Assembly: GCA_009773395.1 (NCBI GenBank)
Contig: WRPI01000004.1
Coordinates: 310,001-374,000, forward strand
DNA from: Hyphomonadaceae bacterium
Lineage (GTDB): Bacteria; Pseudomonadota; Alphaproteobacteria; Caulobacterales; Aquidulcibacteraceae
Direction: 5' to 3'
Length of the DNA: 64,000 bases
Positions 554 to 44,790 of the stretch are shown here, one piece after another; within the stretch, counting starts at the first letter, position 1; each line of letters starts with the position of its first letter. A model generated the notes under the pieces. That model worked only from the letters and a program-made list of their open reading frames with translations, searched no databases and had not been told where the DNA came from. The translations under genes were made by a program, and so were the position numbers.

Positions 554-1750
554 TCATAATTTCGCAATCTCGCTGGCAAAGGCCCAATCGAGCCATGGCA
601 AAAGCGCGGCAACGTCCGAAGTTTCTACGGTCGCGCCACACCAAATCCGCAGGCCGGGCGGTGCTGCGCGGTAACCACCTACATCAAGCGCGGCACCAGC
701 TTTTTCAAGCGTGCTGGCCAAGTTTTTGGCAAAATTTGCTTGACCTTCTTCGTCCAGCGATGTCACGCGGGGGTCAATAACTTTCAAGCAAACGCTGGTA
801 TTTGATTTGGTGTCATCGCGCGCCGATAAATTGGCAACCCATGGAGTTTTGGCGACCCAGCTGTCAATCACCGCCAAATTTGCATCTGCGCGCGCCATTA
901 ATCCTTGCAAACCGCCGACGGATTTCGCCCAATTTAGCGCGTCAATATAATCTTCAACTGCAAGCATAGAAGGCGTGTTGATGGTTTCGCCTTTGAAAAT
1001 GCCTTCAATCAATTTGCCTTTGGAAGTTAGGCGGAAAATCTTGGGCAAAGGCCATTCGGGGGCGTATGTTTCCAAACGCTCTACAGCGCGTGGTGACAAT
1101 ATCAATATGCCATGCCCACCTTCGCCGCCCAATGCTTTTTGCCAAGAAAGTGTGGTTACGTCTAATTTACCCCAATCCAAATCTTGGGCAAAAGCGGCGC
1201 TGGTTGCATCGCAAATGGTAAGGCCTTCGCGGCTATCCAAAATCCAATCGGCATTGGGAACGCGCACACCTGATGTTGTGCCATTCCAGGTGAAAATAAC
1301 GTCTGCGGTTTGTGTGGGGACGGCGGTAAGGTCAGGCAAATCGCCATAGCCGGCTTTTATGACCATTGGATCCAATTTCAATTGCTTGACGGTATCGGTG
1401 ACCCATTCTTCGCCAAAACTTTCGAACGCCACAACGCAAACTGGCTTTGGCCCAAGCAATGACCATAAAGCGGCCTCAACTGCACCAGTGTCGGAAGCGG
1501 GCATAATGCCAATGCGGTAATCAGCCGGTACTTGTAAAACTTCGCGGGTTAAATCAATTGCCAATCCAAGGCGGCTTTTGCCAATTTTGGAACGGTGCGA
1601 ACGGCCAAGGCACTCGGTGGCAAGCGCAGATGCACTCCAGCCCGGACGCTTTTTGGTTGGCCCCGATGAAAATCGTGGGTCTTGTGGCAAAATTGTAGGG
1701 GGGTTCGCGCCATTGTTCACGCCAGCGCCAGCGTTAATTTCATTCGTCAT
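554..1750 (-). CDS. serC: Phosphoserine aminotransferase
   Basis: The 398-residue protein matches the alphaproteobacterial type of SerC (class V aminotransferase fold). It converts 3-phosphohydroxypyruvate and glutamate to phosphoserine, the second step of serine synthesis, and can also serve pyridoxal phosphate synthesis. Visible marks are the N-terminal LPQDPRFSSGPTKKRPGW segment, CDATSAAFAQDLDW (residues 180-193) and the PLP-binding lysine K205 in SWQKALGGEGGHG. The ATG at 1750 follows a structured leader. It is first in a serC-serA operon on the minus strand and is divergent from recQ. Confidence 0.95.
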   Translation of the reverse strand: MTNEINAGAGVNNGANPPTILPQDPRFSSGPTKKRPGWSASALATECLGRSHRSKIGKSRLGLAIDLTREVLQVPADYRIGIMPASDTGAVEAALWSLLGPKPVCVVAFESFGEEWVTDTVKQLKLDPMVIKAGYGDLPDLTAVPTQTADVIFTWNGTTSGVRVPNADWILDSREGLTICDATSAAFAQDLDWGKLDVTTLSWQKALGGEGGHGILILSPRAVERLETYAPEWPLPKIFRLTSKGKLIEGIFKGETINTPSMLAVEDYIDALNWAKSVGGLQGLMARADANLAVIDSWVAKTPWVANLSARDDTKSNTSVCLKVIDPRVTSLDEEGQANFAKNLASTLEKAGAALDVGGYRAAPPGLRIWCGATVETSDVAALLPWLDWAFASEIAKL

Positions 1751-1806
1751 TTAGTCATCCTCACAGATGAGCGCCCTACGGTGGGATAGGGTGGCCCAGC
1801 GCGCTA
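1751..1806 (-). ncRNA. Candidate serC leader RNA (cis-regulatory)
   Basis: The 5' leader of serC can fold into two hairpins: CCCTA/TAGGG at 1774-1778 and 1787-1791, with flanking GCGC boxes at 1771-1774 and 1799-1802, and TCATC/GATGA at 1755-1759 and 1766-1770 right beside the start codon. A conserved serC leader motif upstream of serC in Alphaproteobacteria has been described (Rfam serC family). Position, lineage and two-hairpin form fit it, but I matched it by memory and not by covariance model. Confidence 0.5.
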
Positions 1807-31081: not shown

Positions 31082-31426
31082 TGACCTAGCAGTTTGTTGA
31101 AAAACTACGAAAAACGGACACCTTGGCACTAATGCGATGCATTAGCAAACGAGATTAAAGACGCTTGAACGAATTTGCTTTGGAATGGTCTTAAGAACAG
31201 GTTTGCCTTAAGCCCATTCTGTAATTATCCCTTCGCGTCCTAGGTTTTTGTCAAGTCCTCGCGCATGGCGCGACCGCGAAGCGGCTTCGGGACTTGACAA
31301 AAACCTAGGTGATGAATGGTTTTGGGGAACAAGTTCCTCCATAAACCATTCCTAGACCACTTGTTCTTTCTTTCCTAAACAATACACCAAATATAGATAT
31401 TTGGTGCAACTTGAACGTCCGATGCG
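31082..31426. other. Gene-free region packed with hairpins between convergent genes
   Basis: This 345-base gap separates the convergent binding-protein and WYL genes and carries no credible coding frame. It is made largely of successive inverted repeats, listed under the repeat entry for 31129-31406. I see no promoter or RNA gene that can be named. Its likely job is two-way termination or it is a mobile palindromic element that has degenerated. Confidence 0.7.
31129..31406. repeat. Series of inverted repeats including a perfect 20-base stem
   Basis: In order: CTAATGC-GAT-GCATTAG (31129-31145); 13-base arms GAATGGTCTTAAG and CTTAAGCCCATTC with one mismatch (31183-31195, 31207-31219); a perfect 20-base stem CCTAGGTTTTTGTCAAGTCC with its complement (31239-31258 and 31290-31309); AATGGTTT/AAACCATT (31315-31322, 31343-31350) enclosing GGAAC-AA-GTTCC; and CACCAAATAT-AG-ATATTTGGTG (31385-31406). 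The last is followed by GCAACTTGAAC, a word also found in the arms of the element at 43373-43536. Confidence 0.85.
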
Positions 31427-32404
31427 CTAGAGTCCATTCGCCAAATCCAACGCCATTCGCATTTCATTTTTCAATTCTTGCGGTTCGAGTATTTCCAATT
31501 TCCCACCCCAACGGAACAGGCCCCACGCCAATTCGCGTAATCCGCCGCCGTGCATTTGGATTTCGAGGCTGCCGTCGCCCAATTCATCCATCGTTTGATT
31601 TGGGTGGAAAACCCATCTTTTGGCTTCATCGGCATATTCTTTGAATACATGAAGTTTCACTTTGTGCATTACGTCATCTTGAAAGACGCCAAAACTGCGG
31701 TGGGAAAATTCTTTAAGTGAAAAATCTTCGGGAGCGGCACCGATTTTATCGGACAATTCAATTTCACGAATTTTGTCAACTCGCCAAACTTGCGGCCTCC
31801 CGCCTTTATATTTTGAAGGTTCAACCCCAATTAAATAGGCTTCGCCGCCAAATAAAATGCCATAAGGAATAAGATCACGCAAAATATTGGATTTTGAACC
31901 GCCATCATAAACAAAACTAACTTGGCGCATCATCAATATCGCATCACGCAGCACATTCAGCGTGAAAGTGTTGAAACTTGGGCGTGGCCCTGGGCTAACC
32001 GCAATGGCTTCGGCCTGCATAAGGGCTTCAATATCTGGTTCTAATTTTGATATTTTGGGGCCAATTGCTGCCATCATTTTTGTTTCAAGCCCTTTTAGGG
32101 TGAAAGCAGCATCAAGCGAATGGTTTTCAAAATGCAATTGCGCCGATTTAAGCGCGGCAATTTCCTTTGAGGTAGGCACTTGCAAGAACCCATCCAGCCG
32201 CCCATTGATGCGCCAGCGTTTGGTTGGCGGATCGGGAATTTCTTCCATCGTATCAAACATTTCAAGCAATCGATCACGCATACGCTCAATCGTGCGGCGC
32301 TTCACCGACATTTTTTCGGCCATTTCATCGAGCGTAAGGCCCATGCGCGTATTCGCCAGCTCACGCGCTAATTCAATCAATTGTGCCGATTTTTCGTGTC
32401 GCAT
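31427..32404 (-). CDS. WYL-domain transcriptional regulator
   Basis: The 325-residue protein has an N-terminal helix-turn-helix of the DeoR/HTH_11 type (LTLDEMAEKMSVKRRTIERMRDRLLEMFD, residues about 22-52), a helical linker, and a WYL sensor domain with VSFVYDGGSKSNILRDLIPYGILFGGEAYLIGV (the WYL core here reads AYLIG). A C-terminal WCX-like extension follows, ending ELAWGLFRWGGKLEILEPQELK. WYL regulators often bind nucleic-acid ligands and control defence or DNA-repair genes. The start at 32404 (MRHEKSA) follows GGGGAGTG. It is divergent from a DUF4258 protein with an 80-base gap, its likely partner or target. Confidence 0.88.
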   Translation of the reverse strand: MRHEKSAQLIELARELANTRMGLTLDEMAEKMSVKRRTIERMRDRLLEMFDTMEEIPDPPTKRWRINGRLDGFLQVPTSKEIAALKSAQLHFENHSLDAAFTLKGLETKMMAAIGPKISKLEPDIEALMQAEAIAVSPGPRPSFNTFTLNVLRDAILMMRQVSFVYDGGSKSNILRDLIPYGILFGGEAYLIGVEPSKYKGGRPQVWRVDKIREIELSDKIGAAPEDFSLKEFSHRSFGVFQDDVMHKVKLHVFKEYADEAKRWVFHPNQTMDELGDGSLEIQMHGGGLRELAWGLFRWGGKLEILEPQELKNEMRMALDLANGL

Positions 32405-43032: not shown

Positions 43033-43269
43033 TTAAAAAATGCCGGGGTTTGCTTGATTTGCGCGGTCTAATTCGCGCTCAACCCGCACCCGAACATTTT
43101 GTTCAATTTTCATATTGATGTTGAGGTTGATTTCAATTGGCTTGTCGGGCGCAACAATCTGCACAGTTGGTGTGCAGGCCGCAGCAATAAAGCCCACCGC
43201 AATTATACCTGGAGCAATCCACAATATTTTAGCAATTTGGCGCACTTGACGCTCCTCTACTTCAACCAA
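43033..43269 (-). CDS. ynbE: YnbE family lipoprotein
   Basis: The 78-residue protein has a short signal, lipobox ending at the Cys of AAAC, and the family core CTPTVQIVAPDKPIEINLNINMKIEQNVRVRVERELD. YnbE is an outer-membrane lipoprotein that caps the YdbH bridge in E. coli. The start at 43269 has a long N-region (MVEVEERQVRQIAKILW); a shorter start is not obvious from the sequence. It is the first gene of a ynbE-ydbL pair. Confidence 0.85.
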   Translation of the reverse strand: MVEVEERQVRQIAKILWIAPGIIAVGFIAAACTPTVQIVAPDKPIEINLNINMKIEQNVRVRVERELDRANQANPGIF

Positions 43270-43372: not shown

Positions 43373-43536
43373 TAGAGCGCCCAATGTTCAAGTTGAATCG
43401 AATTTGCCGCAGCAATTTTGTGCTAGTTTTGGCGGCAAATATGCGGTGAATACTGGGGTATTCGCCAAGTATTTGTTGCCGAAAATGGTGCAAAAGGGCG
43501 CGGCAAAGCGATGCAACTTGAACATTGGGCGCTCTA
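43373..43536. repeat. 164-base palindromic element with perfect 23-base ends
   Basis: The ends at 43373-43395 and 43514-43536 are perfect 23-base inverted repeats (outer bases TAGAGCGCCC). The interior continues as an imperfect inverted repeat: the left half (AATTTGCCGC..., GGCGGCAAATATGCGG) pairs with the right half (TTTGTTGCCG..., GGCGCGGCAAAGCG) up to GTGAATAC/GTATTCGC at the centre. The right end overlaps the TAG stop of the M16 peptidase gene. No coding frame of value lies inside. A short related word, GCAACTTGAAC, occurs near 31407. It resembles a miniature inverted-repeat element or a large terminator hairpin. Confidence 0.85.
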
Positions 43537-44790
43537 GCCCCAATTTGAGACCAGTTTTTCAACTTTGGAATTGCCAATTGCACTCGCGGTTCGGCGTGAT
43601 GGGTCACGGGTAAATACCGCTAATTCTTGAATTTGTTTAAGCGTAACATTTCTGATGCCTTGCGATATTTCGTCAATATTTATGGTTTCACCAAAAACAA
43701 AAATTTGGCCAACCATAGACAAAAGCCGCGATGACGGGTTTTCAAATGCCAAAAGAATCGAAGTCTCTAAGGTTTTCTTGGCGCGTGCGAGTTCGATCTC
43801 ATTGGGGCCGTTTTGCGCAATATCATCCAAATGATGTTCAATGATATTTAGCGCTTTGGCAGCATTATTTGCCGCGCAGCCGAATGATATATTGAGCCTT
43901 GATACATCAAAATAATTTTCACAATAGGCATCAATATTATAAACAAGGCCCTGTTTTTCGCGCAAATCCGACAATAATCGCGACGCCATGCCACCGCTTA
44001 AAATGCTGCTGAATATTTGTGATATGAATAAATCTTTGCGGTTTGGTTTGGGCAAAGCAAATGATAGCGCAATTTGCGATTGTTCGATTTTACGGCCTTC
44101 AAACAAGACGTTTTTAGTAAACTGCGCATTGATAGGCGCTGTCGCAGGTTTTGGGTGTAATGCGCCAAAAGTGCGCGAGGTTAAGTCCAATATTTCATTT
44201 TCATCAAACGCGCCGCTTACACCAATAATCAGGTTTAGGGGGGCGCTATACATGGCGTGGAATTGCTCAATTTGTGCTTTATTGATATTATTGAGGCTTG
44301 CTGCGTCGCCAAGAATTGGCATACCAAGGGGCTGGGCATGATATGAAGCCATTTGGCACAAAACGCTGGCCCTATCTTCGGCATCATCGAATGCTTCGTT
44401 GATTTCGCTGATTACGACATTTTTTTCAAGCTCAAAGTCACGGGCATCAAGATGAGGGGATAGAACCAAATCAGTGCAAAGCCCCAATGCAAATCCGACT
44501 TCGTCAGAAAGGCAACGCGCGAAAAAGCCTGTGCGTTCATGCGAAGTAGCCGCGTTCAAATAGATTCCGCGCCCTTCAGCGTCTTCGGCCAAAGCGTTTG
44601 CGCCGCGCCCGCCCGCGCCTTTGAATACTAAATGCTCAAGCAAATGGGCCACGCCATTATTTTGGCTGTTTTCATGACGTGTCCCGACATTGGCCCAAAC
44701 CCCGACACTTGCACTTTTCAGATGGCTAATGGGGTCAAGGACAATTCTTACGCCATTATCAAGTCTTATTAGTTTTGGGGTTTTTTCCAA
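43534..44790 (-). CDS. M16 family zinc peptidase (processing peptidase-like)
   Basis: The 418-residue protein is an alphaproteobacterial relative of mitochondrial processing peptidase beta. It has the inverted zinc motif HLLEH (residues 49-53, in NGVAHLLEHLVFKG) and the downstream VVISEINEAFDDAEDR segment carrying the third ligand. Homologues cleave peptides in the cytoplasm or periplasm. No signal peptide is visible. It begins 5 bases after thrC, the usual order behind the cytochrome oxidase operon in this lineage. Its stop lies within a palindromic element. Confidence 0.93.
   Translation of the reverse strand: MEKTPKLIRLDNGVRIVLDPISHLKSASVGVWANVGTRHENSQNNGVAHLLEHLVFKGAGGRGANALAEDAEGRGIYLNAATSHERTGFFARCLSDEVGFALGLCTDLVLSPHLDARDFELEKNVVISEINEAFDDAEDRASVLCQMASYHAQPLGMPILGDAASLNNINKAQIEQFHAMYSAPLNLIIGVSGAFDENEILDLTSRTFGALHPKPATAPINAQFTKNVLFEGRKIEQSQIALSFALPKPNRKDLFISQIFSSILSGGMASRLLSDLREKQGLVYNIDAYCENYFDVSRLNISFGCAANNAAKALNIIEHHLDDIAQNGPNEIELARAKKTLETSILLAFENPSSRLLSMVGQIFVFGETINIDEISQGIRNVTLKQIQELAVFTRDPSRRTASAIGNSKVEKLVSNWG

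Follow-up and report, generated by a model that had tools for sequence, protein, structure and literature searches.

Correia/NEMIS, ERIC and RUP elements are described as non-coding repeats of ~100-200 bp with inverted-repeat ends, a TA at both termini and hairpin-forming transcripts (PMC2229807). ERIC is listed there as occurring in E. coli, and ERIC/RU-1 copies have been reported at the 3' ends of genes, where in one case the stop codon was removed and the protein extended (PMC2759123). BOX repeats of Streptococcus pneumoniae are reported to encode the stop codon of 36 genes, with orthologues giving no strong evidence of truncation in the account of PMC3049150. Two alphaproteobacterial examples are described in PMC2229807: the intergenic CIR repeats of Caulobacter and Brucella, built of two hairpin arms and a linker with the CcrM-type motif GANTC in the loop, and the Rickettsia palindromic elements, which measure 105-146 bp, form a long stem-loop and also occur in frame inside conserved protein genes. 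The units of REP are given as 20-40 nt (PMC3733652).

Here we analyze a palindrome in a 64,000-nt stretch of DNA, called the window throughout (positions 310,001 to 374,000 of contig WRPI01000004.1, assembly GCA_009773395.1, Hyphomonadaceae bacterium). It is very probably one copy of a non-autonomous, MITE-like mobile hairpin that targets TA, and represents a new family, here family A, of a kind known in other bacteria. Among the open-licence papers listed by our literature searches, none dealt with family A.

Results

A 164-nt hairpin ends in the stop codon of an M16 peptidase gene

The initial annotation of the window had described a 164-nt palindrome with perfect 23-nt inverted repeats, foldable over its whole length and overlapping the stop codon of the M16 gene, and these points were borne out to the base. 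The arms (TAGAGCGCCCAATGTTCAAGTTG) lie exactly where claimed, and the final CTA on the plus strand reads TAG on the minus strand, as the M16 stop (Table 1). The DNA fold of the plus strand reaches -65.3 kcal/mol (z -14.35, equalled by none of 200 shuffles), against -54.8 kcal/mol for the minus strand, and -70.2 kcal/mol (z -13.33) when the flanks are included. Twenty mononucleotide shuffles of the window yielded only 5 inverted repeats even of 14 nt within 450 bp. The palindrome is not a chance occurrence, because there are 36 related copies in the genome.

Table 1. Positions of the features discussed (window coordinates unless another sequence is named).
Feature	Position	Strand	Remark
Family A copy, 164-nt hairpin	43373..43536	+ (best-folding strand)	23-nt perfect ends, fold, 36 copies, covariation
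Left terminal inverted repeat	43373..43395	+	starts TAGAGC
Right terminal inverted repeat	43514..43536	-	final three bases are TAG on the minus strand
TAG stop codon of the M16 peptidase gene, probably element-supplied	43534..43536	-	would combine a target TA with the element's G
GAATC, a GANTC site	43395..43399	+	element position 23
M16 peptidase gene	43534..44790	-	stop codon inside the element
Next same-strand gene, the element's other neighbour	43033..43269	-	79 codons including stop
Family B copy, multi-hairpin	31087..31429	-	end TAGCGC...GTTCAAG in common with family A; boundary at 31087 weak
TAG stop codon of the WYL gene	31427..31429	-	supplied by the family B copy
serC leader RNA (RF00517)	1750..1801	-	above gathering score
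Regions with the GTCATCCCCGA...TCGGGGATGAC repeat	G000:C7 491-1249, 2697-2902, 8566-8789, 76214-76438, 130087-130254, 218501-218936, 323062-323324		

Family A has 36 dispersed copies with shared ends

The 164 bases, used as query against the genome that carries them (2.63 Mb in 17 contigs), returned 61 matching pieces, many of which are one copy matched on both strands, as expected from a palindrome. Additional divergent copies were recovered with a covariance model of 23 full-length sequences. The count of 36 copies, which settles against a single-copy palindrome, leaves out C8:240141, weak pieces with E above 0.01, and C7:343182 (E 0.495). The 39-nt match to the element at C8:240141 turned out to be a family B terminus (see below).

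Copy lengths are tightly grouped, with 29 of 36 measuring 162-164 nt (25 of 164 nt, 3 of 163, 1 of 162); the others are 206 nt (three copies), 148, 131, 50 and 38 nt (one each). Ends of the form TAG[A/C]GC are present at 31 of 36 left and 32 of 35 right termini, or 63 of 71 in total, the 38-nt half copy having no right end, and in 5 of the 8 exceptions the outermost base is altered. When the flanks of each copy were joined, only the copy's own locus matched across the junction in the sequence stretches compared. Family A thus consists of short, non-coding, multicopy and dispersed units with unlike flanks, and has terminal inverted repeats and a TA at both ends, as bacterial MITE-like palindromic elements do. 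Copies of 164 nt differ from one another at a median of 26 sites and a maximum of 66; as 5 differences separate even the most similar pair, the family, judged on its sequences, is probably dormant now and gives no sign of recent spread.

Three copies (L022 1397-1602, L024 1501-1706 and L025 1413-1618) carry a 42-bp insert (CTTTCGCTTCGCT...CGGCT), which sits at two different element positions, each between TTT and GT. A 41-base pattern of the insert, with up to 3 mismatches allowed, has no other occurrence in the genome. It may represent either a size variant or a mobile unit nested in the element.

The stem shows compensatory changes

We aligned 23 copies, excluding those of 206, 163, 162 and 148 nt, the truncated copies and two divergent 164-nt copies. 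The aligned sequences share one 72-pair hairpin, predicted from the same sequences on which it is assessed and so somewhat favoured, in which 26 pairs are altered on both sides. Across the 23 copies 96.7% of the paired cells can pair, compared with 37-46% (maximum 45.6%) when the pairing is slid by 1-3 columns, and 0 of 500 shuffles reached any of five measures.

Contrasts between nearest copies (25 copies of 164 nt, giving 12 pairs and one unpaired copy) contain 41 double changes, of which 35 are still canonical, where random placement predicts 15.4 and never exceeded 26 in 500 trials; the other 6 lose a pair. One-sided differences in the same contrasts comprise 61 G.U, 11 A.C and 31 other mismatches, with a further 2 G.U/mismatch and 1 mismatch/mismatch changes.

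Such a record could also arise by mutation, if one arm of a quasi-palindrome was copied onto the other by template switching. Double changes do sometimes come in blocks, as in columns 8-11 between two close copies, and intermediates are often missing from the alignment. Template switching should, however, erase G.T and A.C alike, which is not what the 61 G.U against 11 A.C and 31 other differences look like, although this argument is weak for the 57 pairs that form on both strands, where the ratio is 20 to 10 (p = 0.10). The double changes are also spread across the stem, with 18 in columns up to 16 and 23 beyond. On balance we regard template switching as an unlikely source of the conserved pairing.

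One strand folds better in every long copy

In RNA folds, the plus strand was the more stable one in all 34 copies longer than 100 nt, copies that share ancestry and are therefore not independent counts. Consensus folding of 25 copies gave 72 pairs on the plus strand and 58 on the minus strand, with 57 in common, 15 on the plus strand only and 1 on the minus strand only. Because the one-sided differences in the common pairs reach only p = 0.10, polarity rests mainly on the strand-specific pairs. RNA and single-stranded DNA are indistinguishable by these measures, since G.T wobble is tolerated in DNA as well.

The plus strand folds better whatever the orientation of a copy to host genes, so a constraint on polarity would belong to the element's own cycle. 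One could imagine that family A moves by way of a folded single-stranded intermediate whose polarity is fixed, either RNA or ssDNA, instead of by double-stranded cut-and-paste, and that several repeat families of this genome with the ends TAG[A/C]GC...GTTCAAG use the same machinery; we put this forward as a speculative and rather improbable proposal. If it is true, the end-sharing families would together account for rewritten stop codons in a few per cent of all genes.

Copies are enriched at stop codons

Genes were called with a simple purpose-written caller, and a few of the neighbouring calls are small or have low scores, among them one of 59 codons that extends into the copy at C7:34218. 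By these calls, the copies fall in equal numbers (12 each) between convergent, divergent and co-directional genes; the last group has 6 sense and 6 antisense copies. This distribution bears on the idea that the hairpin is a host regulatory structure at gene ends, such as a bidirectional terminator or a hairpin for mRNA processing or stability. A very stable fold with conserved pairing, often immediately at stop codons, is what such a structure would look like, but the contexts are evenly mixed and the co-directional copies split equally between sense and antisense, even though one strand always folds better. We consider a host structure very unlikely, and terminator or 3'-UTR function was set aside on the strength of the placement contexts of the 36 copies.

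Stop codons are nevertheless a frequent location, as the initial annotation had anticipated. At the very end of the element, 11 of the 36 copies donate the TAG of a neighbouring gene, serving 12 gene ends. Since 268 of 2784 permissible TA sites in a 400-kb sample fall in stop codons (9.6%), ~3.5 copies would be expected there, compared with the 11 found (p = 4e-4). Two of the 11 rest on genes that have no family match or were not scanned (C11:96476, 115 codons; C7:410766, 73 codons), and restricting the count to genes matched by a family or an orthologue leaves 9 of 36 copies at stops (p = 0.006). Seven more gene ends stop 10 or 11 bases inside the element, which adds a few codons to them, and two called genes begin inside a copy.

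The suggestion that a mobile palindrome inserts at gene ends is therefore supported: 36 copies with unlike flanks and the enrichment at stops agree with it. It needs one refinement, since 12 copies sit between divergent genes: the element seems to target TA as such, with gene ends favoured or tolerated but not exclusive, and the enrichment at stop codons could reflect tolerance as opposed to target choice. Past mobility of family A and its harmless insertion at stop codons are backed by good evidence.

At C15:310143, one copy between two convergent genes serves as TAG for both. These two intact stops are explained by duplication of the TA, if both genes formerly shared one TA, and from this copy we infer that insertion duplicates its TA target. 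No empty site was found at base level in the sister species, which are 52-53% identical in M16, or as a paralogous site in the stretches compared. When genome contigs were scanned with an M16 alignment, the best 80 of at least 558 relatives, headed by uncultured Alphaproteobacteria and Caulobacteraceae, were ~40% identical or less, too distant to be usable for empty sites.

In the 400-kb sample, [AC]GC follows 20 of 113 TAG stops, compared with 6 of 169 TAA and 2 of 79 TGA stops (TAG against the other stops, 8 of 248, p = 6e-6), and in the window it follows 4 of 19 TAG and 1 of 43 other stops; these are counts of stops with this continuation, not each one shown to be an element.

Proteins that end in a copy are complete where this can be judged

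Comparison of the M16 C-terminus with relatives, a check suggested together with the palindrome, found the length to be within one residue of four sister orthologues: the protein continues for 12 residues past the last conserved glycine, and the orthologues for 13 each. The sister genes stop with TAG in two cases and TAA in two. A small gene similar to the next one in the window (43033..43269), as judged by eye, follows M16 in all four sister loci too.

Ten proteins with element-supplied stops were scanned against families, and 4 of them match to the last or next-to-last profile position near the C-terminus. The acetolactate synthase-like protein, encoded by one of the two genes at C15:310143, matches to position 514 of 514 at residue 486 of 486 and so ends where its family ends; the others match PRK11087 to 237 of 238, Peptidase_M24_C to 62 of 63, and B_lactamase-like_C to 46 of 46, followed by 14 residues. 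A match to CcmH extends to 139 of 143. The remaining scanned proteins have partial matches or none and are uninformative on the C-terminus. Going by these alignments, an element-supplied stop leaves the protein end where relatives end, wherever this can be judged.

A rival reading is an in-frame coding insert, like a Rickettsia palindromic element, the net 162 bases being equal to 54 codons. The frame from element position 2 is free of stops in 12 of 33 long copies, and three called genes (C10:109051, C8:134084 and C8:64738) read through a whole copy at their start, two of them long (an M23 peptidase of 363 aa and an MltA-like protein of 489 aa). Against this, the same frame contains a stop in 21 of the 33, four divergent copies measure 162-163 nt, and no copy was seen to separate two conserved parts of the same protein. 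The family matches (NCBIfam, Pfam) of the M23 and MltA-like proteins start at residues 169 and 215, far past the element, so that the true starts of both genes may lie downstream of it. A coding insert is the least probable of the alternatives, and hardly credible, although the called genes starting next to copies raise its likelihood slightly.

Other repeat families of this genome share the ends of family A

An 11-base word near 31407, which had been linked to the palindrome, is real: at 31405, a short distance ahead of the WYL gene's TAG, 12 bases (TGCAACTTGAAC) are shared with the palindrome. It belongs, however, to a larger family, B, that has the same terminal sequence. Family B repeats are ~340-415 bp long and have several hairpins around CCTAGGTTTTTGTCAAG...CTTGACAAAAACCTAGG between family A ends; further examples are at L079, L092, L093-L096 and L050. 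The family B mark GGAATGG/CCATTCC appears in 12 regions of the 400-kb sample, and some other regions have the family B layout with altered sequence. Families C/D (L084-L091) are ~104-bp repeats of two hairpins joined by CGACCAAGAAAGAAC. Families B and C/D both carry the family A ends, complete or in large part. Another palindromic repeat, GTCATCCCCGA...TCGGGGATGAC, was seen in seven intergenic regions of the G000:C7 sample (Table 1).

Altogether, 48 of 217 intergenic regions in the 400-kb sample share repeats. The end pattern TAG[A/C]GC, 7 bases, GTTCAA occurs 47 times in the genome and once for the reversed control; four sister species have 0, 1, 1 and 0 occurrences, with controls of 1, 2, 1 and 0.

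GANTC is present in 20 of 33 long family A copies, at position 23 in 15 and at the mirrored position 137 or 138 in 5. The motif is depleted about threefold in the 400-kb G000:C7 sample, with 533 occurrences where base composition predicts 1543. GC skew in the 400-kb sample gave no clear replication direction.

Family A is found in one genome, which lacks three common transposase families

Among 60 genomes of the taxonomic family, the covariance model, under stricter filters, found family A in its own genome only; the 59 negatives include four genomes of the same genus, and blastn likewise found it in 1 of 5 genomes of the genus. This restriction is a second argument against the host regulatory structure considered above. 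Searches of phages, plasmids and E. coli genomes gave no match to family A, and, as regards a relationship to ERIC, blastn of the element against 20,395 E. coli records found none at E 0.01. The exact core pattern of family A had no occurrence in genome or viral contig collections, nor the family B core in the viral contig collection, from all of which our genome may have been left out.

The element matches no Rfam family at gathering score. A permissive Rfam scan of six loci returned two weak matches of one copy to microRNA precursors, far below gathering score, which we dismissed as noise from the hairpin; a flank also gave a weak match to Alpha_RBS.

REP/RAYT systems have a Y1 (RAYT) transposase. 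The genome of family A has no match to the transposase profiles PF13358, PF01797 and PF01609, which were found in 3, 5 and 9 of 14 control genomes, respectively, and no longer element with family A ends was recognised among the matches listed.

Discussion

In family A, two TA dinucleotides enclose ~160 bp that pair along their whole length as a single hairpin; we propose that a putative trans-acting enzyme once moved such units into TA dinucleotides, most likely duplicating the TA. Where the target TA opened a TAA or TAG stop codon, the G that comes next in the element would restore TAG; the gene end would be kept and the insertion would be harmless. Purifying selection would then spare insertions into stop codons as well as those into other intergenic TAs. 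Pairing may have been retained during the active phase if the element's own cycle depended on one particular strand, as RNA or ssDNA.

Family A offers a countable case of repeats entering stop codons harmlessly, and in numbers that appear large enough to shift stop-codon usage. The hairpin set, so far from one species, combines strong covariation, a constant better-folding strand and mixed gene orientation. In a genome without matches to the three usual transposase families, what moves such hairpins, and which strand is used, becomes a testable question.

Among known systems, Correia/NEMIS, ERIC and RUP resemble family A in size, non-coding character, inverted-repeat ends and terminal TA, NEMIS and RUP being compared by description only. 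Correia elements are described in two sizes with an internal 50-bp difference (PMC2229807), as family A has a 42-bp difference (164 vs 206 nt). Whereas the ERIC/RU-1 case removes a stop, family A restores one. Family A does not fit REP/RAYT systems, having a 164-nt unit in a genome with no PF01797 match. The Rickettsia palindromic elements are likewise palindromes with a long stem-loop in an alphaproteobacterium, but they include in-frame insertions in conserved protein genes, of which no copy was found for family A. CIR is, like family A, an alphaproteobacterial intergenic repeat with a GANTC site; by description, its two hairpin arms and linker recall the layout of families C/D of this genome, whereas family A is an end-to-end hairpin with GANTC in the stem and not in a loop. 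Finally, stop-codon donation by repeats is already known from BOX and is not new here: BOX repeats are, like family A, dispersed and non-coding, and are a direct precedent for repeat-supplied stop codons, but they are modular (boxA, boxB, boxC) and come from another phylum, a comparison made by description only.
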